Source: Aestuariispira insulae
Lineage (GTDB): Bacteria > Pseudomonadota > Alphaproteobacteria > UBA8366 > Aestuariispiraceae
Direction: 5' to 3'
Length of the DNA: 64,000 bases
Assembly: GCF_003385955.1 (NCBI RefSeq)
Contig: NZ_QRDW01000004.1
Location: forward strand, 124,001 to 188,000
Below, in pieces: positions 24,847-45,345 of the stretch (its first letter is position 1; the number at the start of each line of letters is the position of its first letter). The notes below the pieces were generated by a model. That model was not told the origin of the DNA and ran no database searches. It was given only the letters and a program-made list of their open reading frames with translations. Made by a program: the position numbers and the translations under genes.

Positions 24847-24874
24847 CGGAAAAGACCAGAGAGGCGATAACGTC

Positions 24875-26248: not shown

Positions 26249-26259
26249 GAGTGCGGGAC

Positions 26260-26949
26260 ATGAACCGTCACATCATTCGAAAATACGCGATCCGCACTGG
26301 TTTTCTGGCCCTGGCGATGATGGCTGCTGGCTGTGAACGCTATGTTGAAAACTGGGAAGAGGTAAACGGTATTCCTGAATTAGAGGTTCATTCCGTGGAT
26401 TATACCCATGCCGTCCATTTTGACCCGGCCAACAACCTTCCGCACAGTCTGGAGATGGATCAGCTTTCCCAGTTCATGACGCGGATCCGGACCCGGCGGG
26501 ATGACCCGATTGAAGTGCGATACGAGAATACGCCTGCCCAGCGGGATCAGGCGGCCATCATGAAGGCAATTCTGGAGGACCAGGGGTTTCAGGTTCGGGC
26601 AAAACGGATCGAAGCAGTTGATGCCGGGGGGAAGGGATCCGAACCGATTGTGGTTGCGGTGACGAAAGCCGTGATCAAATTGCCGGACTGTCCCAACTGG
26701 AATGATGATGTTTTGGACGGGTATAGCAATTTGACTTACCAGAATTTTGGCTGTGCCAATGTCACCAATCTTGGCCTGATGATCGATCGTCCCATGGACC
26801 TTGTCCAAGGGCGAAGTGACGGGGTTTTTGATGGCGATTTGGCCGCTTCTTCGATCCAGCGCTACCGCACACGTGAGACCACGCCGTTGAATATTGATGA
26901 TTTTGGTCTTGTGTCTGAATCCAGCTCCTCGAGCCAGACGGGAGAATGA
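26260..26949 (+). CDS. cpaD: Pilus assembly lipoprotein CpaD
   Basis: About 229 residues. The N-terminus is a lipoprotein signal (FLALAMMAAGCERY), with Cys as the lipidated residue. The CpaD family region includes the Cys-containing LPDCPNWNDD and QNFGCANVTNLGLMID, possibly a disulfide pair. The protein assists the secretin in the outer membrane. AGGAGTG before ATG 26260 favours that start over GTG 26251. The 3' end is Ser-rich. Confidence 0.88.
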   Translation: MNRHIIRKYAIRTGFLALAMMAAGCERYVENWEEVNGIPELEVHSVDYTHAVHFDPANNLPHSLEMDQLSQFMTRIRTRRDDPIEVRYENTPAQRDQAAIMKAILEDQGFQVRAKRIEAVDAGGKGSEPIVVAVTKAVIKLPDCPNWNDDVLDGYSNLTYQNFGCANVTNLGLMIDRPMDLVQGRSDGVFDGDLAASSIQRYRTRETTPLNIDDFGLVSESSSSSQTGE

Positions 26950-26952
26950 CTG

Positions 26953-28179: not shown

Positions 28180-29879
28180 TGTTTGGACGCAGAACGCCCC
28201 CACCAAAACCGGCATCAGTGGTCGAAATTGACGATTATCGTGCCAAGGAACAAAAGGAAACCAGTGCAGCTGTCCCCAAAACGGATGAGCGCGCAGTCGC
28301 GCCCAAAGATGCAGAAGGGGTGTTGGACGGTGGGGATCATCACGAGAATCTTGTGAACGCCACAATCACGGAATTTTTCAAACGCAATAAACCTGTCACC
28401 GTCCTGATCATGCCGCGCCAGGAAGCCTCCAACAGCGTGCAATCCACGTTGGAAGAAGTACTGATGAAAGAAGGCGTCGAGGTGGCTCCGCATGATAAAA
28501 GGGACCTGGTGACATCAGCCCTCAATGAAATCCTGTTCGAAGCCCGCAAGCAGGCGCCAGACGGCGAGAGCGACGCGCGCGCGGCCCAGAAAACAAAATC
28601 CACCATCGACCATGCCAAAGAGGCGGTGCAGAACATTCTTCTCGACAGGATTGATATTGCCAAGGTGCTGGAAACACCGCGCGGTGAATTGGCCAGCCAG
28701 GTGAATGAGGTTGTCGAGGAAATCCTCGAAGATGAGCATATCCAGCTTAATACGGTCGAACAGCGCGATCTTGTCACTTTGCTGTTGAATGACATGCTGG
28801 GTCTCGGGCCGCTTGAACCGTTGCTGGCGGACGAGGCCGTCACCGATATCATGGTGAACGGAGCCAAACAGATCTATGTGGAGCGCAAGGGAAAGCTGGA
28901 ACTCACTGACGTGACATTCCGAGATGATGCCCATGTGATGAATATCGCCAGTCGGATTGTGTCCCGGATCGGACGCCGCATTGATGAAACCACCCCCCTG
29001 GTGGATGCGCGTCTGGAAGATGGCAGCCGTGTGAATATCATTATTCCGCCGCTGGCCATTGATGGCCCCAGCATTTCCATCCGTAAATTCTCTGAAAAGA
29101 AAATTACCCTGGATGTGATGGAGCGCCAACGGAATGTCTCGCCAGCCATGGCAAAGGTTTTGAAAATCGCCTCGCGCTGTCGGTTGAATATCCTGATTTC
29201 CGGCGGTACGGGCTCAGGGAAGACCACTATGTTGAATGCACTTTCGCACATGATTGATGTGGGGGAGAGGATCTGCACCATCGAGGATGCGGCGGAATTG
29301 CAGCTTCAGCAGCCTCATGTGGTTCGTCTGGAGACCCGGCCGCCGAACCTGGAGGGGAAGGGCGAGATCACCATGCGTGAATTGCTGAAAAACACCCTTC
29401 GCATGCGGCCAGACCGGATCATTTTGGGTGAGATCAGGGGCTCTGAAGCCCTGGATATGCTGCAGGCCATGAATACCGGTCATGACGGTTCCATGTGTAC
29501 GATCCATGCCAACAACCCGCGCGAGGCTTTGACCCGGCTTGAAAATATGGTGGCAATGGCCGGTGTGAAACTGCCCCATGAGGCAGTGCGGTCACAAATT
29601 GCCAATGCCGTGCATCTGGTGGTGCAGGTATCCAGGATGCGCGACGGGGTACGTCGGGTTTCCAAGGTGACGGAAATTGCCGGGATGGAAGGGGAGATTG
29701 TGACGACCCAGGACCTCTTCACCTATCAATTTACCGGCGAGGATGCCGAGGGTAACTTGACCGGCGAGTTTATCAGCAGCGGTTTGCGTCCGGTTTTCAT
29801 GACCCGGGCTCAATATTACGGACTTGAAAAAGCCCTGATGCAGGCCATGGCGGCGGAGAGCGATCATGCTAACGCTTGA
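28179..29879 (+). CDS. cpaF: Pilus assembly ATPase CpaF/TadA
   Basis: About 566 residues of the type II/IV secretion ATPase family. A long N-terminal domain (about 1-180) precedes the core with [14 protein letters not shown] (Walker A), an Asp box ([12 protein letters not shown]), [15 protein letters not shown] (Walker B) and a His box ([18 protein letters not shown]). It powers pilus extension. Two ATGs, 28176 and 28179, follow AAGGGAGG; the second has better spacing. It overlaps cpaE and, by 14 bases, tadB. Confidence 0.94.
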
Positions 29880-30849
29880 GTTCATGATACTCATCGCCCT
29901 GGCGGGCGGATGCGCCTTTTGCATGGTTCTGATGCTGGCCGGAGGCGGCAAACATAAGAAAATTGTGAAACGCCGCCTGGATGATTTTCAGAAATATCAG
30001 GGCAAACATCATGCATCGGATCAAACCGGGAACGCATCGCTTAAGAAGGCTAAGCAAAGCGAAAAACGCTGGCTAACCTATGTGATCAAGATTTTGCCGC
30101 GTCGCCAACGTCTTGAATATTTGCTGTCACAGACGGGCAAGGACATCACCATTTCCCAGTTTCTGCTTTTTTCCTTCGGCATCGGGGTGATGGTAGCCGC
30201 ACTTGCCTATGTGATTGGTCGACTGCCTCTTCCTTTGACCGCATTAATCGGACTTTCGGCTGGCCCGTTCATCGTTTCGGTTGCCATCAAATATATGATT
30301 TCAAAACGGTGCATGCTGTTTTTGAAGGATTTTCCGGATGCTATCGAATTGCTGGTCCGCGGATTGAAAGCAGGCCTGCCGATCGGTGAATCGATCGCAT
30401 CGGTCAGTCGCGAATTTACCGGCCCGATTTCCGAAGAGTTTGTCAAAATCACTGAAGCCGTCAAAATAGGAACGCCGTTGAATGACGCTTTATGGGCGGC
30501 CTGCAACCGGATGCCGGTCCAGGAATTGAAGTTCTTTGTGATTTCCCTGTCGATCCAGCAGGATACTGGCGGAAACCTTGGGGAGACTCTTGGAAATCTC
30601 GCCCAGATCCTGCGTCGGCGAAAAACCATGAAACTGAAAATCAAGGCGCTGTCTTCTGAAGCGCGCGCCAGTGCCTATATCCTGGGATCGCTGCCCTTTG
30701 TCCTGTTTGGGATCATCATGTTGGTTTCAACCGATTATGCCATGATCCTGATCGAGGATAGCCGCGGACAAAAGGCAGCGGCAGTCGGGATTGGATTGAT
30801 TGTCATTGCCGGTGTGGTCATGGGCAAGATGGTGAGGTTCCGGATATGA
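29866..30849 (+). CDS. tadB: Tad inner membrane protein TadB/CpaG
   Basis: 327 residues with one N-terminal helix, a central pair (LLFSFGIGVMVAALAYVIG and the next) and C-terminal helices around a type II secretion F domain (FPDAIELLVRGLKAGLPIGE, LSIQQDTGGNLGETLGNLA). With TadC it forms the inner membrane platform for pilus assembly. Its first 14 bases lie inside cpaF. Confidence 0.92.
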   Translation: MLTLEFMILIALAGGCAFCMVLMLAGGGKHKKIVKRRLDDFQKYQGKHHASDQTGNASLKKAKQSEKRWLTYVIKILPRRQRLEYLLSQTGKDITISQFLLFSFGIGVMVAALAYVIGRLPLPLTALIGLSAGPFIVSVAIKYMISKRCMLFLKDFPDAIELLVRGLKAGLPIGESIASVSREFTGPISEEFVKITEAVKIGTPLNDALWAACNRMPVQELKFFVISLSIQQDTGGNLGETLGNLAQILRRRKTMKLKIKALSSEARASAYILGSLPFVLFGIIMLVSTDYAMILIEDSRGQKAAAVGIGLIVIAGVVMGKMVRFRI

Positions 30850-31808
30850 ATTTTGGTGAATTCAACGATGTCGACTGGCTGACCTTCCTGGCGGGTTTTT
30901 CTGTCCTGGCTGTATATGGTGCTCTTTGGTTCGTCCTGGCAGAACGCAATCAGGGCATGAAGCGCGATAAGGCGCTCAGGGCCTATGTGCTGAACCAGCA
31001 AGGGCAATTGGTTAAATCAAAGCGCCGCCAAAGCCTGAAAACCAATACCCGCAGCTTCATCAGGGTCATCATCGAAAAGCTGAATTTGATGAAAAGCCAT
31101 CATGCCGATGCGATTGCGCAACGTCTTGTACTGGCGGGATTGCGGTCAAAAGACTCTCTTGTGATCTATCTCTTCTGCAAACTGGTGATGCCGATTGTGC
31201 TGGGCATGATTGCAGGTTTTGTTCTCTTTGTCATAAAACCTGTCGAATTCGGCATGATGGGTAAGGTGTTCGTTGCCATGCTGGCGGTCTTCATCGGCTC
31301 GAAACTGCCCGACATCGTGGTCAAGCAACTGGTCAAAAAGCGCCAGCTTGGCGTGATGCTGGGCGTACCGGATGCCCTGGATCTCATGGTGATCTGTGCC
31401 GAAGCCGGATTGGGATTGGCGGCCTCCTTAAAGCGGGTCTCCGCAGAAATGGCCGCAGCCTCGCCGGAAATTGCAGATGAATTTTCCCTCACGGCAGCGG
31501 AGTTAGGTTTCCTGCCGGAACGTCGGACAGCCCTTGAGAATCTTGCGCGCCGGACAGATATGCAGCAGATCCGAAGTGTTGTGAACACGTTGCTTCAGTC
31601 AGAAAAATACGGAACCCCATTGGCGGACTCGCTGCGCATACTTGCGGATGAATATCGCGATGAAAGGATGCTGAAAGCGGAAGAAAAGGCGGCCAAGCTT
31701 CCGGCGACCCTGACGGTTCCGATGGTCTTGTTCATTTTGCCGTCGCTTTTCATTGTCTTGCTCGCACCGGCAATTTTTCAGACTTTGGATTCGGTTTCGG
31801 GCATGTAA
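30846..31808 (+). CDS. tadC: Tad inner membrane protein TadC/CpaH
   Basis: 320 residues, type II secretion F domain (GVPDALDLMVICAEAGLGLA, ADSLRILADEYRDERMLKAE) with helices at about 12-30, 95-150 and 290-315. Partner of TadB. ATGA overlap with tadB shows coupling. The cluster ends here on this strand, and no tadE or tadF gene follows in the window. Confidence 0.92.
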   Translation: MNFGEFNDVDWLTFLAGFSVLAVYGALWFVLAERNQGMKRDKALRAYVLNQQGQLVKSKRRQSLKTNTRSFIRVIIEKLNLMKSHHADAIAQRLVLAGLRSKDSLVIYLFCKLVMPIVLGMIAGFVLFVIKPVEFGMMGKVFVAMLAVFIGSKLPDIVVKQLVKKRQLGVMLGVPDALDLMVICAEAGLGLAASLKRVSAEMAAASPEIADEFSLTAAELGFLPERRTALENLARRTDMQQIRSVVNTLLQSEKYGTPLADSLRILADEYRDERMLKAEEKAAKLPATLTVPMVLFILPSLFIVLLAPAIFQTLDSVSGM

Positions 31809-32734: not shown

Positions 32735-32930
32735 CTTGGTTATCCTGCTCTTAAGAAAAGTCATATCATGGTAATCAAAAATAGTATTATGGCGTTGATT
32801 TTGTGTAACATAGCTTCAAAGATAGCATCCAAGTAATTTCTTTACCTTTCTTTTGCTAGTCATTATTTGTTATCCATTAACTCCGTGCTATTTTCGATTT
32901 ATTGTTCAGGATCTTAGGGGCAAATCGGTC

Positions 32931-33389
32931 ATGAATAACGCATATTTTGAGATGATCATCCTTATCGAGCGCTTGCACAGGCGTTTTTTGGATATCGTAA
33001 GGATTGAGCTGAATAACCGCGGTATTCGTGATATCAATGCCCCTCAGGCTTTGGTTCTTGCCAATATTGGTGATTCTGAGATCCTTGTTCGCGACCTGGT
33101 GGAACGGGGATATTACCTCGGTCAGAATGTGAATTATAGCATTCGCAAGCTGGTTGAATATGGCTATTTGAACCAGGAGCGGGACGAGCATGACAAACGC
33201 GCCGTTCGGGTATCCCTGACGGAAAAGGGAAAAGAGCTTATCCCGATGGTGCGCGGGATTGATCATTTGAATCAGGTTTCGGTCATGGACCAACCCATTG
33301 ACGATGCTGAGATCGAAGGCATTTGCTCGACCTTGCGCAAGGTTGAACGCTGCTGGTCTGAATATATCCAATTCCGTCCCTATAACTGA
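32931..33389 (+). CDS. ldtR: MarR-family regulator, LdtR-like
   Basis: About 152 residues with a winged helix. The sequence closely follows the LdtR group of alphaproteobacteria as I recall it: ILIERLHRRFLDIVRIEL, IRDINAPQALVLANIGD, GYYLGQNVNYSIRKLVEYGY and ERDEHDKRAVRVSLTEKG. LdtR controls an L,D-transpeptidase and cell-wall stress functions in relatives. ATG 32931 gives the usual N-terminus (MNNAYFEM); the ribosome site AGGGG is rather far away. It is divergent from the TadD-like gene across about 196 bases in which no gene is seen. Confidence 0.75.
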   Translation: MNNAYFEMIILIERLHRRFLDIVRIELNNRGIRDINAPQALVLANIGDSEILVRDLVERGYYLGQNVNYSIRKLVEYGYLNQERDEHDKRAVRVSLTEKGKELIPMVRGIDHLNQVSVMDQPIDDAEIEGICSTLRKVERCWSEYIQFRPYN

Positions 33390-33417: not shown

Positions 33418-34125
33418 TCAGATCAATTCCCGGAGCTCCATCTGATCAATCAGGTCCGGGATTTCACAGATATCAGTCAAACGGGTGAAATTCTGATGTG
33501 TGGGGTCCTTATGGTGGATTTCATGCACAGCGGTCATTTCATATGGGATATGCACTGCATGACCACCCAGTTCCAGAACCGGCACAATGTCAGACGGAAC
33601 GGAATTGCCGATCATCATCACGCTGGCCGGATCAATGGACCATTCCTGGAATAGGGCGGAATAGGTTGCCACATCCTTTTCACTGACAACCTCGACATAG
33701 TCGAAAAGATCTGCGAGGCCGGATTTGTAAACTTTGTTGGTTTGGTCCAGAAGATCACCTTTGGTGATTATCGCCAGAAGATAGCGCTGTTTTAGGGTGC
33801 GCAAGACATCTTCCACGCCGATGAACAATCGCATCGGTGCATCCAGCATTTTTTTACCCATCATGACAATTTCGTGGATTTGCTGGGCCTCGATCCTGCC
33901 ATCAGAAAGGTCAATGGCGGTTTCCACCATGGAAAGGGTGAAGCCCTTGATGCCATAACCAAACAGTTTGATATTTTGCTTTTCGGTTTTGCCCAGCGCC
34001 GCATCCACTTTTTCGCGTGGCGCATATTGTTCTAGAATGTCACCCAATCGTTTTTGGGTATCCTGAAACATGTCTTCCGTATGCCAGAGTGTGTCGTCCG
34101 CATCGAAAGCAATCAGTCGAAGCAT
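33418..34125 (-). CDS. HAD-family hydrolase, possible nucleotidase
   Basis: About 235 residues with the HAD motifs in order: FDADDTLWHTE (nucleophile Asp and general acid), AIITKGD (motif II Thr), a Lys in YVEVVSEKD and MMIGNSVPSDI (motif IV). The cap is of the helical C1 type, as in YjjG-type nucleotidases. It is the last gene of the leftward nucleoside operon, 22 bases after add, so dephosphorylation of a nucleotide or sugar phosphate of this pathway is a fair guess but not shown. The start at 34125 gives the canonical N-terminal motif. Confidence 0.7.
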   Translation of the reverse strand: MLRLIAFDADDTLWHTEDMFQDTQKRLGDILEQYAPREKVDAALGKTEKQNIKLFGYGIKGFTLSMVETAIDLSDGRIEAQQIHEIVMMGKKMLDAPMRLFIGVEDVLRTLKQRYLLAIITKGDLLDQTNKVYKSGLADLFDYVEVVSEKDVATYSALFQEWSIDPASVMMIGNSVPSDIVPVLELGGHAVHIPYEMTAVHEIHHKDPTHQNFTRLTDICEIPDLIDQMELRELI

Positions 34126-34147
34126 GGGCGTCAGATACCTTTCTTGG

Positions 34148-35140
34148 TTATTCTTGTCCTGACAGTCTTTCCAATAGTTTAGCCTTAGTTTGCGAATCTG
34201 CAAAGCTTGCCGTGATGGCATTTTTGGTGAATCCGATCAACTGAGCGCGGGAGAGGCCCCACTGGGCCGCCGCCAGCTCGTATTCACCGCCGATGGTGCA
34301 GCCAAAATGCGGCGGGTCATCGGAATTCAAAGTAACGATACAGCCTGCCTCCAAGAGTTTGGGCAGGGAATGTTCCGCCATTGTTGGGAAAACCTTCAGG
34401 GCGATATTGCTGGTCGGGCAGACCTCAAATGCGATCTTGGCATCAATCGCTCGCTTCAAAACGGCCGGGTCCTCGACGATGCGTACTCCATGACCGATCC
34501 GAGTGATCGGCAGGTTGTCCAGGGCATCGGTAATACTCTCCGGCCCAACCACCTCACCGGCATGCGCGGTACAGGGCAGGCCGGTCGCCGCCACAATGTC
34601 AAAGGCCGGTTTGAAATCCAGGCAACTATGCAGCTTTTCATCGCCCGCCATGCCGAAACCCACCACATAGGGGTGGGGATGGTCGACAGTGGTTTGGGCG
34701 ACAATAACAGCCCGCTCGGGTCCCAGATGGCGGATACAGGTCATGATAATGCGGCAGATGATGCCGAAATCCGCTTCTGCCCGGTCGATTGCCGCGGCGA
34801 GATGGCCGACCATCTCGGGATAATTCAAGCCGGCCTGTTCCCCATGATCCTGGGAACCGAAAAACTCCACATAGATCACACCTTCCGCGGCGCAGCGTCG
34901 AAGATAGTCATAGACAACATCTTCATAATCCAGGCCGGTTCGAATGCAACCGGCAACCAGATCAAAACCATCCAGGAAATGATTGAAATTGTCCCAGTGA
35001 TAGCGATCCGATAGGCCGTTTAACGCCTGGGGCAGCGTTATGCCGTTGCGATCGGCCAGTTTACGGGCCAGCTCAGGCGTGATCGTGCCTTCGATATGGA
35101 CATGCAGCTCAGCTTTGGGCAGGGATTTGATTGTCATCAT
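34148..35140 (-). CDS. add: Adenosine deaminase
   Basis: About 330 residues of the metal-dependent adenosine deaminase fold: KAELHVHIEGT (two metal His), PCTAHAGEVVGPE (metal His and catalytic Glu), TRIGHGVRIVEDP, VCPTSNIALKV and TLNSDDPPHFG (metal Asp). The RIGHGV and SDDPPHF wording suits adenosine rather than adenine deaminase. It produces inosine for the purine nucleoside phosphorylase of the same operon. ATG 35140 overlaps the stop of the dioxygenase gene and has GAGGA six bases upstream. Confidence 0.88.
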   Translation of the reverse strand: MMTIKSLPKAELHVHIEGTITPELARKLADRNGITLPQALNGLSDRYHWDNFNHFLDGFDLVAGCIRTGLDYEDVVYDYLRRCAAEGVIYVEFFGSQDHGEQAGLNYPEMVGHLAAAIDRAEADFGIICRIIMTCIRHLGPERAVIVAQTTVDHPHPYVVGFGMAGDEKLHSCLDFKPAFDIVAATGLPCTAHAGEVVGPESITDALDNLPITRIGHGVRIVEDPAVLKRAIDAKIAFEVCPTSNIALKVFPTMAEHSLPKLLEAGCIVTLNSDDPPHFGCTIGGEYELAAAQWGLSRAQLIGFTKNAITASFADSQTKAKLLERLSGQE

Positions 35141-36012
35141 GCAAATCCTCGAAGCGGCAGGGACGGATCCCGGATCAGCCAATTGTCTTCCGGATAGGCG
35201 CAAGCGCCATCAATGACATGGAGGGTATAGGCATGGCGGGAATAATCGGACCGGTTAGGGCCACTCTTGTGCGGCATCTTACCGTGCAGCAGGATCAGCG
35301 AACCTTTCGGGACCTCCAGGGGGACATCTTCATTTTCCGGCCAGGGACTGTCATCCAACTGTTCCATCACCATTTTCCCGTCCCGGCGCAGGAACCTCTG
35401 GCGCAACGTGCCGGTATGGGCACCAGGTATTCCCCAGAGGCAGCCATTTTCCACTGTGGCATCTTCGAGCGCGAACCAGAAACCGATCACACTCAGTGGT
35501 TCGGTATAAAGGAAAGTGGAATCCTGATGACAATTCACTTCACCGCCGATATGCGGCTGTTTGAAGATATACATCGACTGCAACAACAGCGGATCGGAAA
35601 GGCCGAGATCCTGCGAGAGCCGTGCCAGTTTCCCGGTGCGGGAAAAGGCCTGGAATTCCGGATCCAGATCATGCATGGCATGACCCATTTTGTTGATGGA
35701 AAGAGCTTTTTCCTGTTTCAGATTGCCATTTTCATCAAAGGCTTCTTCTTCAAAGAAGAAATGAATCTTATCCCCGGATTCCTGGAAATAGGCATCCTTG
35801 GCATGGGATCGGGTCTTGGTGGAAAAAACTGTTGAGATCCCGCTGGGATCAAAGGCATCGACTAAAGCATTTGCCTGATCCTTCAAACGGTCGCATGCAT
35901 CGGAGGAGACAAAATCCTCCAGAATCAAAAAGCCATCGCGGTTAAAGGCGGACAGCATTTCCGGCGTCAGGTGGCCATCAACTGTCGCGTGAAAGCGTGG
36001 TGGCATCTGCAT
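35137..36012 (-). CDS. PHYHD1-like Fe(II)/2-oxoglutarate dioxygenase (phytanoyl-CoA dioxygenase family)
   Basis: About 291 residues with a complete oxygenase site: H162-x-D164 (NCHQDSTF), H248 (KMPHKSG) and the 2-oxoglutarate Arg R259 (YSRHAYTLH). The protein resembles animal PHYHD1 much more than generic PhyH proteins, sharing SGDKIHFFFE, SINKMGHAMH, QSMYIFKQPHIGGEV, FLYTEPL and ENGCLW almost word for word with the human protein as I recall it. ATG 36012 has GGGGGA seven bases upstream. It sits between deoB and add, with the add start overlapping its stop, which suggests a nucleoside-like substrate. The reaction is not established by the sequence. Confidence 0.85.
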   Translation of the reverse strand: MQMPPRFHATVDGHLTPEMLSAFNRDGFLILEDFVSSDACDRLKDQANALVDAFDPSGISTVFSTKTRSHAKDAYFQESGDKIHFFFEEEAFDENGNLKQEKALSINKMGHAMHDLDPEFQAFSRTGKLARLSQDLGLSDPLLLQSMYIFKQPHIGGEVNCHQDSTFLYTEPLSVIGFWFALEDATVENGCLWGIPGAHTGTLRQRFLRRDGKMVMEQLDDSPWPENEDVPLEVPKGSLILLHGKMPHKSGPNRSDYSRHAYTLHVIDGACAYPEDNWLIRDPSLPLRGFA

Positions 36013-36042: not shown

Positions 36043-37263
36043 TTAGAAACAGGCCGTGCCATGGGCCAATGGACCAACATCCAGATGGGTCGCAATTGTC
36101 TGACCCATATCGGCAAATGTGCGCCTGCGGCCCAGGTTTTTTGCTTCAATTCCCGGCCCATAAAAAATGACTGGCACATGTTCCCGGGTATGATCACTTC
36201 CGGGCCAGGTCGGGTCACAACCGTGATCTGCGGTGATCAAAACCAGGTCACCCGGTTTCAGGATAGCATCCAGTTCGGGCAGGCGCTGGTCAAACTCTTC
36301 CAATGCATTGGCATAACCCGCCACATCCCGCCGATGGCCGAATGAGCTGTCGAAATCCACAAAATTGGTGAAAACCAGGGAGCCGTCCGGCGCATCACGC
36401 ACGACATCAAGTGTTGCGTCAAACAGAGCCATATTGCCGTTGGCCTTTACTTTGCGGGTGATGCCTTTGCCGGCGAAGATATCGGCAATCTTTCCGATTG
36501 AAATCACTTCGTTGCCCTGGGCGCTGATCAGATCCAGCAGGGTATCTGCATGGGGCAGGGTGGTATAGTCCCGCCGGTTGCCTGTCCGCGCAAAATCATC
36601 GGCATTTTGCCCGATGAAGGGACGGGCGATCACCCGGCCGACTTCTAGCTTTTTGGTCAACCGTTTGGCGATCTCGCAAATCTCATAGAGCCGATCCAGG
36701 CCAAAATGCTCTTCATGGGCGGCAATCTGAAAAACAGAATCCGCGCTCGTATAGCAGATCGGCTTGCCGGTGCGGATATGTTCTTCCCCCAGCTTGGCAA
36801 TGATCTCGGTCCCGGACGCATGGCAATTTCCCAGAATGCCTGGAATATTGGCTTCGCGGATAAATTCCTCGATCAGCTCGTCGGGGAAGCTTGGAACCGT
36901 GTTTGGAAAAAAGCCCCAGTCAAACTCAACCGGCAGGCCAGCAATCTCCCAATGACCGCTGGGTGTGTCCTTGCCTTTGCTGACCTCTGCGGCATGTCCA
37001 TAGGCACCGGCTAGGGTATGGCCATTCAGCTCCAGTCCCGCGGGTTCATGGCCACTGCTGCCTTTTGCGGCAAGGCCGAGGCCCCGTTTCACCAGATTGG
37101 GCAGGGTCAAGGGCCCGTTGCGTAATGCATTATCGGCCTTACCTTCGGCACAATGGCTGGCAATATGGCCCAATGTGTCGGCACCCTGGTCGCCAAAGCT
37201 TGGTGCGTCTTCAGTCGCGCCAAGGCCAAATGAATCCATTACCAGAATGATTGCCCGTGCCAT
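36043..37263 (-). CDS. deoB: Phosphopentomutase
   Basis: About 406 residues of the alkaline-phosphatase-like metalloenzyme family. Clear family marks: [35 protein letters not shown] (with the phosphorylated Thr), [31 protein letters not shown] and [20 protein letters not shown]. It interconverts (deoxy)ribose 1- and 5-phosphates, linking the phosphorylases to DeoC. ATG 37263 with AGGAA upstream gives the usual start. 72 bases separate it from deoA. Confidence 0.94.
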
Positions 37264-37335
37264 CGTCTTATTCCTGAATATCAATTACCGTTTGGACCGG
37301 ATCCGGATGATTCGGTCCTGTTAGGCAAAATGGGT

Positions 37336-38658
37336 TCAATCGCCCCGGCGTTCAATGACCGGCTTGCCGGTTTCCCGTGCGTTGCCGCCAATTTCAATTG
37401 CCTGCAGGATGGCATCCGCCGCTTTTTCAGCTGCTGCTTCACTGCGGGCATGAATGGTGGCCAGCGGGGTCTGGTTGTCCAGTTTGTCGCCAAGACTCGC
37501 AAAATCGGTCAGGCCAACAGCATAGTCGATTTTGTCGCTGGCCACACGGCGGCCGCCGCCAAGCTCAACCACGGCAACCCCGACGGCGCGGGTGTCAATG
37601 GCAGTGACAAAGCCCGGTTCATTCACGAAAAGCTCTTTTCTAACAGGAGCTTCTTCGAGATAGCTGCGGCTTCTCTCGACAAAGTCGACGGGGCCGCCCA
37701 AGGCGGCAACCATTTTGCCGAATACCTCGGTGGCCGCACCGCTATCGAGGGCTGCCTGGGCTTTCTGCTGGCCTTCTTCGAAACTGCCTACCAGGCCGCC
37801 GAGACGCAGCATGTCGGCCGCAAGGGCGATGACAATCTCGTGCAGGCGCGGTTCCCGCTTGGCCGGATTGGTCAGGTAATCAACGGTTTCGCGCATTTCA
37901 ACCGCGTTGCCCACATGCCAGCCCAAGACCTGGTTCATATCGGTGATCAGGGCGGATGTTTTTACGCCTGCGTGATTGGCCACGGCCACGATGCTTTCAG
38001 CCAGTTCCTGCGCCATTTCCAGGCTGTCTGCAAAGGCACCATTGCCGGTTTTTACATCCATCGCCAGACCGTCAAGGCCCGCCGCCAGCTTCTTCGACAG
38101 AATGCTGGCGGTGATCAGCGGCACGGATTCGACCGTCGCGGTCACATCGCGGATGCCGTAAAACCGCTTGTCTGCCGGGGCTAGGTTGCCGGTCTGGCCG
38201 ATGATGGCGCAGCCCACTTCCTTGACCACCTTGCGGAAGGTGGCGTCATCGGGGGAAACGGAATAGCCCGGGATGGAATCAAATTTGTCCAACGTGCCGC
38301 CGGTATGGCCCAGGCCGCGGCCCGAGATCATCGGCACAAAACCGCCGCAGGCGCCGACAATGGGGCCCAGCATCAGGCTCACCTTATCCCCGACACCGCC
38401 GGTGGAATGCTTGTCGAGGACCGGGCCGCCCAGATCGTCATTATCCCATTCCAGCACGGTGCCGGAATGCATCATGCCGCGGGTAAGGGCGATCCGCTCA
38501 TCCATGGTCATGCCGTTGAAAAAGACCGCCATGGCCAGGGCAGCGATCTGTCCTTCACTGACCGAATTTTCGGTGATGCCTTTAACAAAGAAAGCAATCT
38601 CTTCGTTGGAAAGGGCCTTGCCGTCGCGTTTTTTGCGAATAATTTCTTGTGCTAACAT
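37336..38658 (-). CDS. deoA: Thymidine phosphorylase
   Basis: About 440 residues, pyrimidine nucleoside phosphorylase family: [20 protein letters not shown] at the start, [18 protein letters not shown] (phosphate site), [17 protein letters not shown] and [15 protein letters not shown] (substrate Lys). It releases thymine or uracil and deoxyribose 1-phosphate. ATG 38658 is preferred to a TTG four codons earlier, and lies eight bases after the deoC stop. Confidence 0.95.
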
Positions 38659-38666
38659 ATTTCCAC

Positions 38667-39434
38667 TCAATAACCGGAGGAGGCAGGGGCCGGGGCATCA
38701 TCGCCGTCCAGAACTGCAATAAGGCTGGTCAGGACGCCACTTGCGCCAAACCGGAAACGGTCGGGATTGACCCAGCCTTCACCCATGATTTTATCGGCAA
38801 GCGCTAGATAATTACCCGCCGTTGCCACATCCTTGATGCCGCCGGACGGTTTGAAGCCCGCTTCAGAGCCTGTGTCGCGCAGGGTTTCCAGCATTATTTT
38901 TGCCGCTTCCGGTGTCGCGGAAACCGGCACCTTGCCGGTGGAGGTCTTGATAAAATCCGCACCATTGGCAAGAGAGAGCTCGCTGGCCTTCCGGATGCTG
39001 TCCGCGTCGGGCATACAGCCGGTTTCCAGAATGACTTTCAAACGGCCATACTCGCCACAGGCTTTTTTGCAGGCTGCAACCAATTGTGCCGCAGTATCAA
39101 CATCCCCGCGCAGGAAGGCGCGATAGGGGAAGACAACATCCACTTCATCACCGCCGGCCTCAATGATCTGCTGGCTGGTATGGACGGCCTGGTCAATATC
39201 GGACCCACCATCCGGAAAGTTGGAAACGGCAGCGATCTTCACCGGCTTGTCTTTCAATAACTCGGCCGCCAGCGCAACAAAGCGCGGCCAGACACAGACC
39301 GCAGCCACATGGCCATGCGGTGTGACTGCCTTGGCGCAAAGGGCCCGGATTGTCTCTTCGCTATCGGTATCATTCAAGCTGGTCAGGTCCAGCAGGGAGA
39401 GCGCGCGTTTTGCGATATCCTTGTCCGAGGTCAT
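38667..39434 (-). CDS. deoC: Deoxyribose-phosphate aldolase
   Basis: 255 residues. The Schiff-base Lys lies in [18 protein letters not shown], and a second Lys in [10 protein letters not shown]; the [18 protein letters not shown] start is that of the DeoC barrel. It splits deoxyribose 5-phosphate to acetaldehyde and glyceraldehyde 3-phosphate. It overlaps the phosphorylase gene by four bases. Confidence 0.95.
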
Positions 39435-40231
39435 GAAAGCGATCCTTCCAGCAGGGCGGTGATCAATGTCTGCACTTTGGCAGCGCCCTCGGCTGCATTG
39501 TCCATGGTCTGTTCGTGGCTGAGGGCGGTTGTACTCATGCCCGCGGCCATATTGGTCACGATCGACATGGCGGCAACCTTCATGCTGGCTTCGCGGGCCA
39601 GGATCACTTCCGGCACGGTGGACATACCGACCGCATCAGCTCCGAGGGTCTTAGCCATGCGGATTTCCGCCGCCGTCTCAAAATGCGGCCCACAGAACCA
39701 GGCATAAACGCCTTGGTGCAGGGTAATGCCATTATCCTTGGCGATTGTCTCCAGTTTGGTGCGAATTGACGGATCATAGGCATCCACCATATCAACAAAA
39801 CGGCTGTTGCCGGTCTCGTTGAACAGGGGTGAGACACCGGTCAGATTGATATGGTCATTGAGCATGATGACCGCGCCGGGTTGGGCCTCTTCCAACAAAC
39901 TGCCGGCAGCGTTGGTCAGGATCAGGGTCTCGCAGCCAATCGCTTTCAGGGTGCGTACAACCTCTTTCATCGCTGCCGGGTTGCCATGCTCGTAATAATG
40001 GGCGCGGCCCTGGCAGACGGCCACATCGGTCTGGCCAACGCGGCCCAGCACCAGGCGGCTGGCATGGCCATGCACGCCGCTGGGCGGGAAACCGTCCAGT
40101 TCTTCATAGCCAATCACATGGGCATCTTCGACCGCATCGGCAAAACCGCCGAGGCCGGATCCCAACACAATCCCCACTTTGGGAGCAAAGCCGTTGGTCT
40201 TTTTTTTGATGACCTTAGCTGCATCTGTCAT
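39431..40231 (-). CDS. punA: Purine nucleoside phosphorylase (trimeric type)
   Basis: 266 residues of the PNP/MTAP class: VGIVLGSGLGGFAD (phosphate loop), GVHGHASRLVLG, CQGRAHYYEHG, LTNAAGSL, FCGPHFETAAEIRM and GMSTVPEVILARE followed by a VTNMAAGM purine-site motif (Asn of the 6-oxopurine class). It cleaves inosine and guanosine and their deoxy forms, fed by add. It overlaps cdd and deoC by four bases each. Confidence 0.93.
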   Translation of the reverse strand: MTDAAKVIKKKTNGFAPKVGIVLGSGLGGFADAVEDAHVIGYEELDGFPPSGVHGHASRLVLGRVGQTDVAVCQGRAHYYEHGNPAAMKEVVRTLKAIGCETLILTNAAGSLLEEAQPGAVIMLNDHINLTGVSPLFNETGNSRFVDMVDAYDPSIRTKLETIAKDNGITLHQGVYAWFCGPHFETAAEIRMAKTLGADAVGMSTVPEVILAREASMKVAAMSIVTNMAAGMSTTALSHEQTMDNAAEGAAKVQTLITALLEGSLS

Positions 40232-40620
40232 TCGAGATTCTCCGGCCCGAAAGAATCGGGCAACAATTCATTGAGAGTAAACGTTTTTTTCAAACCATCC
40301 GGACCGCAGACATGAATAGGGGTGTCCGGCCTGGAAAATTCGCGGATCTTTTGCCGACAGCCGCCGCAAGGCGTTACCAAACCGTCCCCGCCGCCGATCA
40401 CGGCAATTTCCTCGATTCTGCGGGCGCCATCACGCACCATGGCGGAAATGGCAGAGGCCTCCGCGCAGCATCCTTCCGGATAGGCGGCGTTTTCCACATT
40501 GCACCCGCTATAGAGTTTACCATTTTCCGCCTGCAATGCGGAGCCTACATGGAAATTGGAATAGGGCGCATAAGCCTGTTCCATGGCGGCCTTGGCCAAA
40601 TCAAACAGTTTTTGATCCAT
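40228..40620 (-). CDS. cdd: Cytidine deaminase
   Basis: 130 residues, the small zinc-dependent homotetrameric type. Zinc and catalytic residues lie in GCCAEASAIS (Cys, Glu) and PCGGCRQKI (two Cys); the FHVGSALQAENGKLYSGCNV segment is typical. It converts (deoxy)cytidine to (deoxy)uridine for DeoA. One base separates it from the upstream permease gene. Confidence 0.94.
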   Translation of the reverse strand: MDQKLFDLAKAAMEQAYAPYSNFHVGSALQAENGKLYSGCNVENAAYPEGCCAEASAISAMVRDGARRIEEIAVIGGGDGLVTPCGGCRQKIREFSRPDTPIHVCGPDGLKKTFTLNELLPDSFGPENLE

Positions 40621-40621
40621 A

Positions 40622-41596
40622 TTACCGTTCCTTCACATAGGGAACGCCGATTGCCTTGGGCGCAATCGCTTTGCCGATAAAGCCAGCCAACAGCACCACC
40701 GTCAGGATATAGGGCAGGGCCTGGATAAACTGGACCGGCACTTCTCCGATGCCCGGCAGCACGACGCCCTGAAGGCGGATTGAAACCGCATCGAGGAACC
40801 CGAACATCAGGCAGGCCAGCATGGCCGGCACGGGACGCCATTTGCCGAAAATCATGGCGGCAAGCGCGATATAGCCTTGGCCCGCGGACATTTCCCGGAC
40901 GAAAGACGCATTCTGCGCCACCGACAGATAGGTGCCAGCAATCCCGGTCAAAATTCCGCAGATCATCACCGCACGGTAGCGCAGGAAGGTTACGGAAATA
41001 CCGGCCGTATCGACTGCGTTTGGATTTTCGCCGACGGCCCGCAGGCGCAGGCCAAAGCGGGTCTTGTACACCACCCAGCTGGTGACTGCTACAAGGGCAA
41101 AAGCGAGATAGACCAAAAGGTTATGCCCGCTGATTACTTTGGCATAGAAGGGACCGATGACCGGAATTTCTGAAAGCGTTTCCGCGAGCGGAAAATGGAT
41201 CGGCAGGAAGCGCGCTTCCTGGGGCAGGGTCGGCGTCTGTCCGCCTTGATGGAACCAAACCACGCCCAAAACGACAGTCAGGCCGGAAACCAGGATATTG
41301 ATGGCAACGCCGCTGACCACATGGTTGCCATTGTGGGTGATACAGGCAAACCCATGGAGCAGGCTGAGACCGACGGCAATCAGGATGCCACCGCCAAGCC
41401 CGACCCAGGCGGAGCCGGTGACATAGGCAACACCGGCAGCCACAAAGGCCGCAGCCAACATTTTGCCTTCCAGACTGATATCGATGATGCCCGACCGTTC
41501 CGAGAAAAGGCCCGCCATGGCACAAAGAATCAAAGGCGTGGAGACACGCACCGTCCCGGCGAGGGTGGAGATGGCGATATTAATCAGGTCTTCCAT
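40622..41596 (-). CDS. Nucleoside ABC transporter permease (NupQ/YufQ-like)
   Basis: 324 residues, about nine membrane helices, BPD_transp_2 family. FSERSGIIDISLEGKMLAAA and ITHNGNHVVSGVAINILVSG are the conserved blocks of the BMP-associated permease, with RAVGENPNAVDTAGISV as the coupling loop that contacts the ATPase. It pairs with the next permease upstream; the BMP-type system imports purine and pyrimidine nucleosides in other bacteria. Confidence 0.9.
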   Translation of the reverse strand: MEDLINIAISTLAGTVRVSTPLILCAMAGLFSERSGIIDISLEGKMLAAAFVAAGVAYVTGSAWVGLGGGILIAVGLSLLHGFACITHNGNHVVSGVAINILVSGLTVVLGVVWFHQGGQTPTLPQEARFLPIHFPLAETLSEIPVIGPFYAKVISGHNLLVYLAFALVAVTSWVVYKTRFGLRLRAVGENPNAVDTAGISVTFLRYRAVMICGILTGIAGTYLSVAQNASFVREMSAGQGYIALAAMIFGKWRPVPAMLACLMFGFLDAVSIRLQGVVLPGIGEVPVQFIQALPYILTVVLLAGFIGKAIAPKAIGVPYVKER

Positions 41597-41598
41597 GA

Positions 41599-42729
41599 TT
41601 ATGCCTCCTTCTCAGCGGGTTTGGGGTCGGATTGCAGCATGTAAAACAGGCCCTCGATCCAGGGTTTGCACATATAGGTGAGCGCACCGCAGAAGAGAAT
41701 GATCAGGCCCTGAATGGCGACAACAAATTCCCGGCTGAATGCTGGGATCTCAAAGGCAAGTTCGGCACCGCCCTGATACAGGATGCCAAAAAGCAGACTG
41801 GCCAATACGATGCCCACGGGGTGGTTCCGTCCCATCAGGGAGACAGCAATACCAGTGAAGCCGTAACCGGCAACAAAGTTCAACAGAACCTTATGATGGA
41901 CCCCCATGACTTCATTCATGCCGACAAAGCCTGCCAGCGCGCCGGAAATGCCCAGGGCGACCATGACGATTTTGCGAGAATCGATACCGGCATATTGTGC
42001 CGCGGATTCATTTTGCCCGACGGTTCGCAGCATATAACCCCAACGGGTGCGCCAAATGAATATCCAGACAAAGATGCAGCAAACAACCGCCCAGAACAGG
42101 CTTCCATTGAGAGGCGTAGCCGCGGTTTCAATGCCAAACCAGCCGAGAATCTCATGCATGAAAGGCATATGGGCATTATCTGCAAAAACCCGGCTTTCCG
42201 GGGACATTTGCGCCGGAGCCTTGATCACATCCACCAGCAGGTAGTTCATCAGGAAATAGGCGATGAAGTTGAACATAATCGTAGTGATCACGATATGGCT
42301 GCCGCGATAGGCCTGAAGATAGGCCGGAACCGCGACCCAGGCCGTGCCAAATAGGGCAGCAGCCATGATGGCCAGTGGCAGCAGCATCCAGAAAGGCAGG
42401 ATGCCATCCAGGGCCAGCAGGATCAGCCCGACACCCAGGCCGCCGATATAGGCCTGGCCCTCGCCACCGATATTGAACAGGCTTGCATGGAACGCCACAG
42501 CCACGGCCAAACCGGTGAAGATGAAGTTAGTGGTGTAATACAGAGTATATCCGAGGGATTCTTCATATCCGAAAGCGCCCAGGATCAGGATTTCCAACGC
42601 TTCAAACGGATCTTCCCCGATCGCCAGCACGATAAGTCCGGCCACGAACAGGGCCAGCAGAATATTGATCAGGGGAATAAGCGCGACATCCGCCCAGACG
42701 GGCAGGGGCTTCTTTACCTTGGTGCTCAT
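41599..42729 (-). CDS. Nucleoside ABC transporter permease (NupP/YufP-like)
   Basis: 376 residues, about ten membrane helices, BPD_transp_2 family. The Nup-type features are FNIGGEGQAYIGGLGVGLIL, GSHIVITTIMFNFIAYFLM and the coupling loop RTVGQNESAAQYAGIDS. It overlaps the ATPase gene by four bases and precedes the second permease by two, so the three are co-translated. Confidence 0.9.
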   Translation of the reverse strand: MSTKVKKPLPVWADVALIPLINILLALFVAGLIVLAIGEDPFEALEILILGAFGYEESLGYTLYYTTNFIFTGLAVAVAFHASLFNIGGEGQAYIGGLGVGLILLALDGILPFWMLLPLAIMAAALFGTAWVAVPAYLQAYRGSHIVITTIMFNFIAYFLMNYLLVDVIKAPAQMSPESRVFADNAHMPFMHEILGWFGIETAATPLNGSLFWAVVCCIFVWIFIWRTRWGYMLRTVGQNESAAQYAGIDSRKIVMVALGISGALAGFVGMNEVMGVHHKVLLNFVAGYGFTGIAVSLMGRNHPVGIVLASLLFGILYQGGAELAFEIPAFSREFVVAIQGLIILFCGALTYMCKPWIEGLFYMLQSDPKPAEKEA

Positions 42730-44327
42730 GCCTGACCCTCTTGTTTTTGCTTGTTATTGCGCGGCAAAGCGTTGGCCATCATCAGGCCCAATGTCTTTTC
42801 ATCCGCATCTTTGCCGCTGACTTCGCCGACAATGCGGCCCTCAAACATGACCAGGATCCGGTCGGCGAGGGACATGACCTCGTCCAGTTCAACGGATACC
42901 AGCAGAATCGCGCTGCCCTCATCGCGCATGGCGACAATCTGTTTATGGATGAATTCAATCGCCCCGATATCGACGCCGCGGGTCGGTTGCCCGACCAGAA
43001 GCACAGACGGCTTGTCCTTCATTTCACGCGCCAGGATCAGCTTTTGTTGGTTCCCGCCGGAAAAATTGGCGGACTTCAAAGAAGGATCGCGCGGGCGGAC
43101 GTCAAAACTCTCCATCAAATCGGCGCAATGGTTCCGGATCGCATCCGGCTTGGTCAGGATCCTGCCGTTATAGGCGGGATCAAGATGATAGCCGAGGATG
43201 GAGGATTCAGCGGCATTGAAGGTTTTGACGAGCCCTAAACGCAGGCGGTCTTCCGGGACATGTGCACATCCCAGGTCCCGGATTTCTGCGGCATCCTTGG
43301 GATTGTTCGCATTCACCGTGACGCCGTTCAAGACAAAGGAGCCTTCGGAAACGGGCTGAATGCCAGATAAAGCCTCCAAAAGCTCGCTCTGGCCGTTGCC
43401 GGATACACCGGCAATGCCGACAATCTCTCCGGCTCGGATGCCGAAGGAAACATGATCCAGACGGTCGATCCCCTGGGAATCGGTGACGGTCAGATTATCC
43501 ACGTCCAACAGCATGGCCTGGGGATTTGGATCGTCCTTATCGATCTCAATGCGAACCTTGCGCCCGACCATCAATTCCGCCAGTTCCTCGCGGTTGGTCT
43601 CGGATGTTTTTCGGTCGGCCACAATCTTGCCCTGGCGCATGATGGAGACGTTATTGGTGATTGCCATGATTTCGCGCAGTTTATGCGTGATCAGGATTAC
43701 CGTGACCCCCTGGGAGCGAAGCGAGTCCAGGATTTTGAAAAGCTGGTCGGTCTCCTGCGGGGTCAGAACTCCGGTCGGTTCGTCAAGAATCAGGATTTCC
43801 GCGCCGCGATAAAGCGCCTTGAGGATCTCCACACGCTGCTGCTCGCCAACCGGAAGCTCTTCCGTGATGGCGTCGAGATTGACGAACAGGCCATATTCCC
43901 GTTCAAGCCGCTCCAGCTCCGTGCGGGCGGCCGCGATGCTGCCGGACAGCATGGCGCCCGATTCGGCGCCCAGCATGATATTCTCAAGGACTGTAAAATT
44001 ATCCACCAGCATGAAATGCTGGTGCACCATGCCGATGCCGGCTTTGATAGCATCGGTGGAGTTTTTGATTTTGGTTTTTTTGCCAGAAATATAAATGTCG
44101 CCGCGATCGGCTTCGTAAAATCCATAAAGAATGCTCATAAGCGTGGATTTGCCGGCGCCATTCTCACCCACGATGCCGTGAATGGTGCCTTTCGGCACAG
44201 AGAGATTGACGTCATCATTGGCCTGAACAGGGCCAAATGCCTTGCTAATGCCACGCAGATTGATGGCAGCCGGAGAGCTTTCGCTCTCCGGCTGGACCAT
44301 TTCTACCAACGTTTCCGTGTTAGCCAT
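42726..44327 (-). CDS. Nucleoside ABC transporter ATP-binding protein (NupO/YufO-like)
   Basis: About 533 residues with two ABC domains. The first has a full Walker A (GENGAGKSTLMSILYG) and EILILDEPTGVLTPQE; the second has the usual degenerate P-loop of this class (GVSGNGQSELLEALSG) but keeps FSGGNQQKLILAREM. This double-domain RbsA/NupO type serves carbohydrate and nucleoside importers. ATG 44327 lies 19 bases after the binding-protein stop; its ribosome site is weak, so coupling is likely. Confidence 0.9.
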   Translation of the reverse strand: MANTETLVEMVQPESESSPAAINLRGISKAFGPVQANDDVNLSVPKGTIHGIVGENGAGKSTLMSILYGFYEADRGDIYISGKKTKIKNSTDAIKAGIGMVHQHFMLVDNFTVLENIMLGAESGAMLSGSIAAARTELERLEREYGLFVNLDAITEELPVGEQQRVEILKALYRGAEILILDEPTGVLTPQETDQLFKILDSLRSQGVTVILITHKLREIMAITNNVSIMRQGKIVADRKTSETNREELAELMVGRKVRIEIDKDDPNPQAMLLDVDNLTVTDSQGIDRLDHVSFGIRAGEIVGIAGVSGNGQSELLEALSGIQPVSEGSFVLNGVTVNANNPKDAAEIRDLGCAHVPEDRLRLGLVKTFNAAESSILGYHLDPAYNGRILTKPDAIRNHCADLMESFDVRPRDPSLKSANFSGGNQQKLILAREMKDKPSVLLVGQPTRGVDIGAIEFIHKQIVAMRDEGSAILLVSVELDEVMSLADRILVMFEGRIVGEVSGKDADEKTLGLMMANALPRNNKQKQEGQA

Positions 44328-44346
44328 TGCTGGATAATCCGGCAGA

Positions 44347-45345
44347 TCAGTAGTCACATTTGTTGTCGGACATATAATCCTGAACAACGATTTTGCCTGC
44401 GATAATGTCCGCTTCCGCCTGGTCGACGGCCGCTTTCATCTCAGCAGAGATCAGTTTCTCGTTATGCTCGTCCAGCGCCCAGCCAACACCGCCTTCTGCC
44501 AGACCCAACACATTCATGCCGGGCACGAATTTACCTTCAGAGCTGGATTTGAATACGTTGTAAGCTGCGACATCGACGCGTTTCAGCATGGAAGTCAGCA
44601 TGGTGCCCGGATGCAGGTGGTTCTGGTTGGAATCAACGCCGATGGCATATTTGCCGGCATCAGCTGCCGCCTGATAAACACCGATACCGGTCCCGCCAGC
44701 AGCAGCGAAAACAACGTCCACACCGCGGTCAAACTGACCCTTGGTCAGTTCCGCGCCACGGCCCGGGTCGTTCCAGGCAGAAGGCGTGGAGCCGGTCATG
44801 TTCTGGATGACCTCAACATCGGCATTGGCATGTTTGGCACCCTGGGCAAAACCACAGGCAAATTTACGGATCAGCGGAATATCCATGCCGCCGACAAAGC
44901 CGACCTTGCCGGATTTGGACGCCATAGCCGCCAAAACGCCGACCAGGAAAGAGCCTTCATGCTCTTTGAAGACGATGGACTGGACGTTGGGTTTGTCTAC
45001 GACCATGTCGATGATGGCAAAGTTGGTGTCCGGGAATTCCGTAGCCACTTTTTCGATGGCAGGACCCTGGGCAAATCCAATGCCCAATACGGGATTGCTG
45101 CCGCGCTGAGCCATTTTGCGGATGGCCTGTTCACGCTGGGTCTCGTTGGTGACCTCAAACTCGCGGTATTTGGTGCCGGCTTCGGACTTGAACCGCTCAA
45201 CGCCGTTATAGACACCTTCGTTGAAGGACTTGTCGAATTTGCCGCCCATATCGAAGACGACGGCGGGTTTGAAGTCTCCTGCCTGTGCGCTTGCCACGGC
45301 GAACATGACCGCGGCGGCACCGGCCGCATATTTAATGGCTTTCAT
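44347..45345 (-). CDS. BMP-family nucleoside-binding periplasmic protein
   Basis: 332 residues with a cleavable signal peptide (AAAVMFAVASAQAG) rather than a lipobox. The Bmp/PnrA fold is shown by FDMGGKFDKSFNEGVYNG, IGFAQGPAIEKVA, KEHEGSFLVGVLAAM, GFVGGMDIPLIRKF and AAGGTGIGVYQAA, and IGVDSNQN near the end. PnrA-type proteins bind purine nucleosides. AGGGGAG precedes the ATG. It is the first gene of the twelve-gene nucleoside operon and lies downstream of the RutR-type operator. Confidence 0.92.
   Translation of the reverse strand: MKAIKYAAGAAAVMFAVASAQAGDFKPAVVFDMGGKFDKSFNEGVYNGVERFKSEAGTKYREFEVTNETQREQAIRKMAQRGSNPVLGIGFAQGPAIEKVATEFPDTNFAIIDMVVDKPNVQSIVFKEHEGSFLVGVLAAMASKSGKVGFVGGMDIPLIRKFACGFAQGAKHANADVEVIQNMTGSTPSAWNDPGRGAELTKGQFDRGVDVVFAAAGGTGIGVYQAAADAGKYAIGVDSNQNHLHPGTMLTSMLKRVDVAAYNVFKSSSEGKFVPGMNVLGLAEGGVGWALDEHNEKLISAEMKAAVDQAEADIIAGKIVVQDYMSDNKCDY

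Follow-up and report, generated by a model that had tools for sequence, protein, structure and literature searches.

Why would a bacterium place a relative of the human oxygenase PHYHD1 in the middle of an operon for the import and breakdown of nucleosides? The question is raised by one gene in a 64,000-nucleotide stretch of the Aestuariispira insulae genome (contig NZ_QRDW01000004.1, positions 124,001 to 188,000), which is here called the window and to which the coordinates below refer:

35137..36012, minus strand, PHYHD1-type Fe(II)/2-oxoglutarate oxygenase of 291 amino acids, predicted 2'-O-methyl nucleoside demethylase (PF05721; human PHYHD1, 3e-72; ribose-contact residues; AlphaFold2 model)

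We propose, with a probability of roughly 0.8, that the product of this gene is a 2'-O-methyl nucleoside demethylase that serves nucleoside salvage, a reading on which the protein family, the active-site residues, the gene neighbourhood and the co-occurrence with an importer converge, and in which we infer the substrate and the metabolic flux. The enzymatic activity itself is already published. Bacterial FJS, which derives from a metagenome (GenBank PV755200), human PHYHD1 and several relatives demethylate free 2'-O-methyl nucleosides with 2-oxoglutarate in vitro, and phyhd1-knockout zebrafish accumulate such free nucleosides (PMC12709175; Nucleic Acids Research, December 2025). The function was assigned there, from the metagenomic clone and the zebrafish knockout, so that the role of the animal family has ceased to be an open question. 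What is added here is a signature of conserved residues, together with the bacterial operon home of the enzyme, found repeatedly in several lineages. The main text of PMC12709175 uses the word operon a single time, in reference to the pyr genes of its screening strain, and likewise gene cluster, in reference to a different enzyme; literature searches on PHYHD1 or PhyH proteins in connection with nucleosides led to this paper or to none, and a broader one gave, among the matches listed, no further paper that names PHYHD1.

A PHYHD1-type oxygenase in bacteria

The open reading frame runs from ATG to TGA with no internal stops, and its product covers the entire PhyH profile (PF05721, positions 1-213 of 213; E 2.5e-47; 162.3 bits against a cut-off of 22). 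It carries the iron-binding triad HxD...H and the distal arginine for 2-oxoglutarate that mark the Fe(II)/2-oxoglutarate oxygenases of the PhyH family, and at the level of sequence it is confirmed as an intact member of the PHYHD1 type. The initial annotation had claimed a complete cofactor site, and all four residues that it named (H162, D164, H248 and R259) do align with their human PHYHD1 counterparts H156, D158, H246 and R257. The sequence blocks that it likened to the human protein also proved to be real: SGDKIHFFFE corresponds to human SGDKIRFFFE, QSMYIFKQPHIGGEV corresponds to QSMYIFKQPHFGGEV, and ENGCLW is identical in both.

In the Pfam and NCBIfam searches, no PHYHD1-specific model matched the protein; the best-scoring NCBIfam model, that for methylphosphonate hydroxylase, reached 35 bits where the cut-off is 500, and the PHYHD1 identity is thus hidden by automatic annotation. 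A sequence search of the PDB identified human PHYHD1 as the nearest solved structure (3e-72), 60 orders of magnitude ahead of the runners-up EvdO2 (9e-12) and human PHYH (4.5e-11), with 125 of 272 aligned residues identical. Conversely, a search of the A. insulae genome with residues 4-285 of human PHYHD1 ranked the window gene first (1.6e-72) and another PhyH gene second (1.8e-9), so that the relationship proposed by the initial annotation holds in both directions between the solved structures and this genome. The second relative in this genome (L002, positions 1303-2148) matches the window protein at 34% over 121 amino acids; it represents another PhyH type, is located near a LysR-like regulator gene and is without the PHYHD1 ribose residues described below.

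Two samples of bacterial homologs were used for the comparisons. Set A comes from 385 genomes of the same class and consists of 38 loci (E 1e-30 or better), which represent 23 family groups and ten of which are clipped by contig ends; set B, from the genome_contigs collection, holds the top 80 among 135 confirmed loci. The two sets overlap in three genomes (L006/L144, L010/L147 and L073/L161), and one locus (L001) is the window's own copy; apart from this copy, the 80 loci of set B together with 37 of set A yielded 114 distinct orthologous sequences. As controls, 20 PhyH loci outside PHYHD1 were taken, a non-random pick mostly high among the matches listed from a search of 20 of the 38 genomes. 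One of these (L197) was removed for its position some 15 kb from a PHYHD1 gene on the same contig, leaving 19 loci in 17 genomes. For the residue comparison, the 17 control loci that matched the PHYHD1 profile at 1e-3 were aligned (L193 and L198 were excluded), and with L002 added the controls numbered 18, 17 of them from genomes with a PHYHD1 gene.

In docking to human PHYHD1, the ribose contacted K102, H105, Q139 and W277, and the base was placed against F161 and S154 (PMC12709175). The four ribose-docking residues correspond to K108, H111, Q145 and W278 in the window protein and are kept in 114, 113, 114 and 113 of the 114 distinct orthologs, respectively, and the iron ligands and the arginine for 2-oxoglutarate in all 114. 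Among the other PhyH proteins, none of the 18 has all four ribose residues, although each catalytic residue is present in 17 or 18 of them. The stacking residue F161 is F167 in the window protein, and this position holds Phe in 61 of the orthologs and Tyr in 52, with a single Trp.

A quick maximum-likelihood tree pointed in the same direction. After thinning by similarity from 120 to 101 rows and the addition of 15 other PhyH rows, designated as the outgroup and leaving out the controls L183, L192 and L195, the tree of 116 rows grouped human PHYHD1 with the bacterial set and separate from the outgroup (Shimodaira-Hasegawa approximate likelihood-ratio test, SH-aLRT, 98), with long branches flagged. 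The AlphaFold2 model of the window protein, built from 38 sequences, has a predicted local distance difference test score (pLDDT) of 92.7, and its best fold matches are the two human PHYHD1 structures 2opw (template modelling score, TM, 0.87; E 1.6e-32) and 3obz (TM 0.86; E 2.9e-32), followed by PHYH (2a1x) at 3.7e-15. A phytanoyl-CoA hydroxylase was rejected in view of the E-value gap, the fold ranking and the residue comparison; human PHYH was the closest relative neither by sequence nor by fold.

The window protein thus resembles human PHYHD1 in length, fold, the iron and 2-oxoglutarate residues and the positions of K102, H105, Q139, W277 and F161; it differs in having N160 in place of S154 and in a region equivalent to residues 56-71 that is four residues longer in the human protein, and its gene, unlike the human one, sits within a nucleoside operon. 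Human PHYH shares the fold and the catalytic triad but is more distant (E 4.5e-11; TM 0.63) and is reported to be inactive on 2'-O-methyl nucleosides (PMC12709175). FJS and the related bacterial demethylases are likewise bacterial members of the PhyH family for which the same reaction is proposed; judged from their published description, FJS has two predicted C-terminal helices (264-271 and 278-284), whereas the window model has no helix of at least four residues after position 167, and those demethylases have Tyr at the F161 position where the window protein keeps Phe (PMC12709175).

Nucleoside genes around bacterial PHYHD1

To what extent is the location in a nucleoside operon a general property of the bacterial genes? 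Nucleoside genes were counted anywhere in a stretch of about 20 kb on either strand, with phmmer bit thresholds that we chose ourselves; one locus (L027) was counted by virtue of two genes located about 8 kb off on the other strand. At least two nucleoside genes were found within about 10 kb at 21 of the 38 PHYHD1 loci in set A, as compared to none of the 19 control loci (Fisher 1.9e-5), and at least one at 22 of the 38 versus one of the 19, the latter a single nucleoside hydrolase (Fisher 1.2e-4); these tests disregard shared ancestry and genome size. In set B, 46 of the 80 loci have at least two such genes, including 31 of 34 in the Gammaproteobacteria, 6 of 24 in the Alphaproteobacteria, both loci in the Actinomycetes and 7 of 10 loci without a class name, with none among eight in the Myxococcia and two in the Acidimicrobiia. 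A nucleoside gene on the same strand and no more than 250 nucleotides away was observed at 21/38 loci in set A and 46/80 in set B. Counted over distinct sequences, at least two nucleoside genes lie near 65 of 114, some with flanks clipped by contig ends. The homologs are thus located inside nucleoside clusters more often than outside, as the initial annotation would have it (65/114 versus 0/19 controls), by a modest and uneven majority. Mapped onto the tree, the distribution of the nucleoside context requires no fewer than 12 changes.

The clusters differ in layout. The neighbours in set A include cdd (19/38), punA (18/38) and deoB (12/38), with deoC in the cluster at 7/38. Pelagibius, Dongia, Curvivirga and Enhydrobacter are among the alphaproteobacteria with BMP-ABC/deo operons, and two actinomycetes have a BMP-ABC importer together with a deaminase. 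In the Woeseiaceae and other gammaproteobacteria, the PHYHD1 gene is typically followed by deoA and by genes for a NupC transporter and a nucleoside hydrolase, often with a ribokinase-like kinase. Upstream of several of these PHYHD1-deoA-NupC clusters (L014, L015, L018, L039, L040 and others), we observed a divergent amidohydrolase gene, for which the best NCBIfam model is a TRZ/ATZ family hydrolase, under the cut-off, along with a gene for an outer-membrane TonB-type receptor, which might import nucleosides or oligonucleotides. Elsewhere, the neighbours are of other kinds, such as rmuC, cysS and pirin in Kordiimonas and Marinicaulis, and a dehydrogenase and a BrkB-type protein in Niveispirillum. 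The myxobacterial neighbours gave no match to the nucleoside gene set, the sole set tested there.

The association extends beyond the immediate neighbourhood. The importer permease (E 1e-60 or better) was identified in 84 of the 385 genomes of the class, namely in 35 of the 38 with a PHYHD1 gene and in 49 among the other 347 (Fisher 4.7e-23, read with the same reservation), and it is present in 15 of the 17 genomes in which the PHYHD1 locus has fewer than two nucleoside genes. For two genomes of the window's own family that are without PHYHD1 (G105 and G301), the search gave no deoA match, an empty result that shows nothing in itself, and they therefore could not reveal an operon without the enzyme. 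A deoC match was obtained in 17 of 21 searched genomes with PHYHD1; of the four without a match, three belong to one genus. Four genomes (G066, G280, G358 and G310, with loci L164, L165, L169 and L173) have deoA within their PHYHD1 nucleoside cluster and gave no deoC match. We also considered the possibilities of a phage gene, for which there was no match at 1e-5 in the phage collection, and of a plasmid gene; here, 21 plasmid records were retrieved, and among the 20 listed one has 49% identity (Azospirillum ramasamyi) and 19 have no more than 33%. Both were rejected.

Neighbourhoods that are conserved across unrelated bacteria represent independent evidence for the function of PHYHD1, placed within a complete salvage pathway, and the operons suggest what may become of 2'-O-methyl nucleosides from RNA turnover in nature. 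One broader hypothesis is that bacteria in several phyla have repeatedly assembled a dedicated system for scavenging ribose-methylated RNA, by import, demethylation by PHYHD1 and phosphorolysis or hydrolysis, and that the operon is the ancestral setting of the stand-alone PHYHD1 of animals; we put this forward tentatively, at slightly less than even odds. For those who work on 2'-O-methylated RNA drugs, the bacterial set is also a source of many naturally occurring variants of the enzyme.

The proposed reaction and its alternatives

Oxidative demethylation of a nucleoside before phosphorolysis, as suggested in the initial annotation, is supported by the chemistry reported for human PHYHD1 and FJS on 2'-O-methyl nucleosides (PMC12709175). 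The methyl group, which had been left unspecified, is by analogy likely to be the 2'-O-methyl, because of that report and the conserved ribose-contact residues. In A. insulae, the breakdown of extracellular RNA would yield nucleosides, a few of them 2'-O-methylated, that may be taken up by the BMP-ABC importer. Inside the enzyme, H162, D164 and H248 would bind Fe(II) and R259 would contribute to the binding of 2-oxoglutarate, as is typical of the family, and if the docking into human PHYHD1 is a guide, the ribose would be held by K108, H111, Q145 and W278 with the base stacked on F167 (PMC12709175). With O2 and 2-oxoglutarate, the methyl carbon would then be hydroxylated and the product would break down to the plain nucleoside and formaldehyde, along with succinate and CO2, as reported or proposed for FJS, which releases the methyl as formaldehyde (PMC12709175). 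Enzymes of this kind were reported to lose their activity on dialysis (PMC12709175). The plain nucleoside could subsequently be deaminated by Cdd and cleaved by the purine-nucleoside phosphorylase or DeoA, and the resulting pentose 1-phosphate could be passed on to DeoB and DeoC. Other bacterial routes for 2'-O-methyl nucleosides are provided by the nucleoside hydrolases LbNH, AgNH and RK9NH, which cut the glycosidic bond (LbNH to give 2'-O-methylribose), whereas the window enzyme would first remove the methyl group by oxidation; the RK9NH gene adjoins a gene for a DERA-like aldolase (PMC12709175).

Several observations weigh against this reading. Fewer than two nucleoside genes were found at 17 of the 38 loci in set A and 34 of the 80 in set B, some of which are on short contigs, and the latter include 18 of 24 in the Alphaproteobacteria and all eight in the Myxococcia. 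The ribose contacts derive from docking rather than from a substrate complex, and the purine-contact residue S154, which is N160 in the window protein, is variable in the family, with Val the commonest among the 114 orthologs. The extra PHYHD1 helix near the cavity (human Q56-L71) falls in the region that is four residues shorter in the window protein, where the model has only two short helices of modest confidence (69-72 and 74-77, block pLDDT 66 and 81). Finally, the frequent neighbour deoA encodes a deoxynucleoside enzyme, which leaves room for a deoxynucleoside as the substrate.

This last observation leads to the strongest alternative, which we nevertheless consider improbable: that the enzyme hydroxylates the C2' or another carbon of 2'-deoxynucleosides to give ribonucleosides, like a pyrimidine deoxynucleoside 2'-hydroxylase. 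The deoA gene is the commonest direct neighbour in set B (within 250 nucleotides on the same strand at 40/80 loci), the four of 21 genomes without a deoC match would benefit from a way around deoxyribose breakdown, a pyrimidine nucleoside 2'-hydroxylase is known from a fungus (cited in PMC12709175), and unmodified deoxynucleosides are not among the substrates in Table 1 of that study. However, deoC was found in the other 17 genomes and inside the cluster at 7/38 loci, the neighbours also include punA, cdd and deoB, which are useful for ribonucleosides, with the frequencies given above, and the activity measured in the family is 2'-O-demethylation (PMC12709175). Demethylation of the base before phosphorolysis, for instance of N6-methyladenosine, 1-methyladenosine or 5-methylcytidine, falls within the wider wording of the initial annotation and would suit the adjoining deaminase gene. 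We judge it very improbable, given that FJS and PHYHD1 leave base methyls, as well as the nucleotides tested, untouched and convert N6,2'-O-dimethyladenosine to N6-methyladenosine and 2'-O-methyl-5-methylcytidine to 5-methylcytidine (PMC12709175, Table 1), and that the conserved contacts were docked to the ribose (PMC12709175).

Could the protein instead belong to another branch of the PhyH family, acting on phytanoyl-CoA, a small acid or an amino acid, and be placed in the operon by accident? PhyH genes are numerous, with four family matches in the A. insulae genome among the matches listed, and the 17 of 38 loci that lack two nearby nucleoside genes would be accounted for. The chance of this is nonetheless slim in view of the E-values for PHYHD1 and PHYH (3e-72 versus 4.5e-11), the absence of the ribose residues from all 18 controls, the split in the tree, the context of the genes (21/38 versus 0/19) and the distribution of the importer (35/38 versus 49/347). 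Even less credible is that the enzyme detoxifies an ether-linked or otherwise modified nucleoside other than a 2'-O-methyl one, such as a nucleoside natural product. The weak acceptance of 2'-O-allyluridine by FJS and PHYHD1 (PMC12709175, Table 1) and the wide variation at the position of human S154 are in its favour, but conservation of the ribose residues extends across the 114 distinct sequences, from the Pseudomonadota, Myxococcota and actinobacteria, which fits a common RNA-derived substrate better than a rare product.

The operon and its surroundings in the window

The gene is the tenth in a run of twelve on the minus strand, in agreement, by count, with the initial claim of twelve genes for nucleoside import and breakdown. 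Judged from gene order, an importer, phosphorylases, a deaminase, a mutase and an aldolase on the same strand make up a nucleoside catabolic operon, in which PHYHD1 is accompanied by the following genes, all on the minus strand and listed in order from the BMP gene to the HAD gene:

44347..45345, minus strand, BMP/PnrA-type nucleoside-binding protein (PF02608, 9.5e-64)
42726..44387, minus strand, ABC importer ATPase, start possibly further in (named from sequence and matched in the cluster of relatives; no family search)
41599..42729, minus strand, nucleoside-type ABC importer permease (best family ABC_B6_perm_2, under cut-off; co-occurs with PHYHD1)
40622..41596, minus strand, nucleoside-type ABC importer permease (best family ABC_B6_perm_1, under cut-off; same cluster in relatives)
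40228..40620, minus strand, cdd cytidine deaminase (TIGR01354, 6.3e-44, over cut-off)
39431..40231, minus strand, punA purine-nucleoside phosphorylase (TIGR01698, 1.6e-94, over cut-off)
38667..39434, minus strand, deoC deoxyribose-phosphate aldolase (TIGR00126, 1.3e-58, over cut-off)
37336..38670, minus strand, deoA thymidine phosphorylase (TIGR02643, 7.5e-202, over cut-off)
36043..37284, minus strand, deoB phosphopentomutase (PRK05362, 2.8e-167, over cut-off)
34148..35140, minus strand, adenosine/adenine deaminase (A_deaminase, 2e-80; TIGR01430 over cut-off; nearest PDB chain 3ou8)
33418..34221, minus strand, HAD-type hydrolase, last of the run, start possibly further in (PF00702, 3.6e-10)

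PHYHD1 starts 30 nucleotides after the end of deoB, just behind a run rich in G to which the ribosome could bind, and its stop codon shares nucleotides with the start of the deaminase gene (..GCATGATGACA..). The open reading frame of the latter is listed as 34148-35203, with the ATG at 35140 as the likely start. The flanking by deoB and add and the overlapping start that had been claimed are thus borne out as far as position is concerned; the identity of add is less certain, as the deaminase passes the adenosine deaminase cut-off and may yet act on adenine. Its closest PDB chains, 3ou8 and 3rys, which carry the name adenosine deaminase in their depositions, are nearer to it than the mammalian adenosine deaminases, and the former is a chain that we take to be Pseudomonas PA0148, an adenine deaminase. 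An adenine deaminase from P. aeruginosa was used in another study (PMC13316717). The HAD gene was also matched beside the cluster at L142, L144, L159 and L160.

No RNA regulator was matched in the window by Rfam at gathering scores, and scans for promoter-like sites (2 versus 7.5 expected) and terminator-like sites (19 versus 13.7 +/- 4.3) were uninformative. A MarR-type regulator gene is located past the 3' end of the operon, at 32853-33389 and on the other strand, and it was matched at the corresponding position in the nearest relative, L142. Further on, at 24716-31808, genes that read, by their sequence, as a Flp/Tad-type pilus secretion locus would encode a secretin, a CpaE-like protein, a CpaF-like ATPase and TadB/TadC-like proteins.

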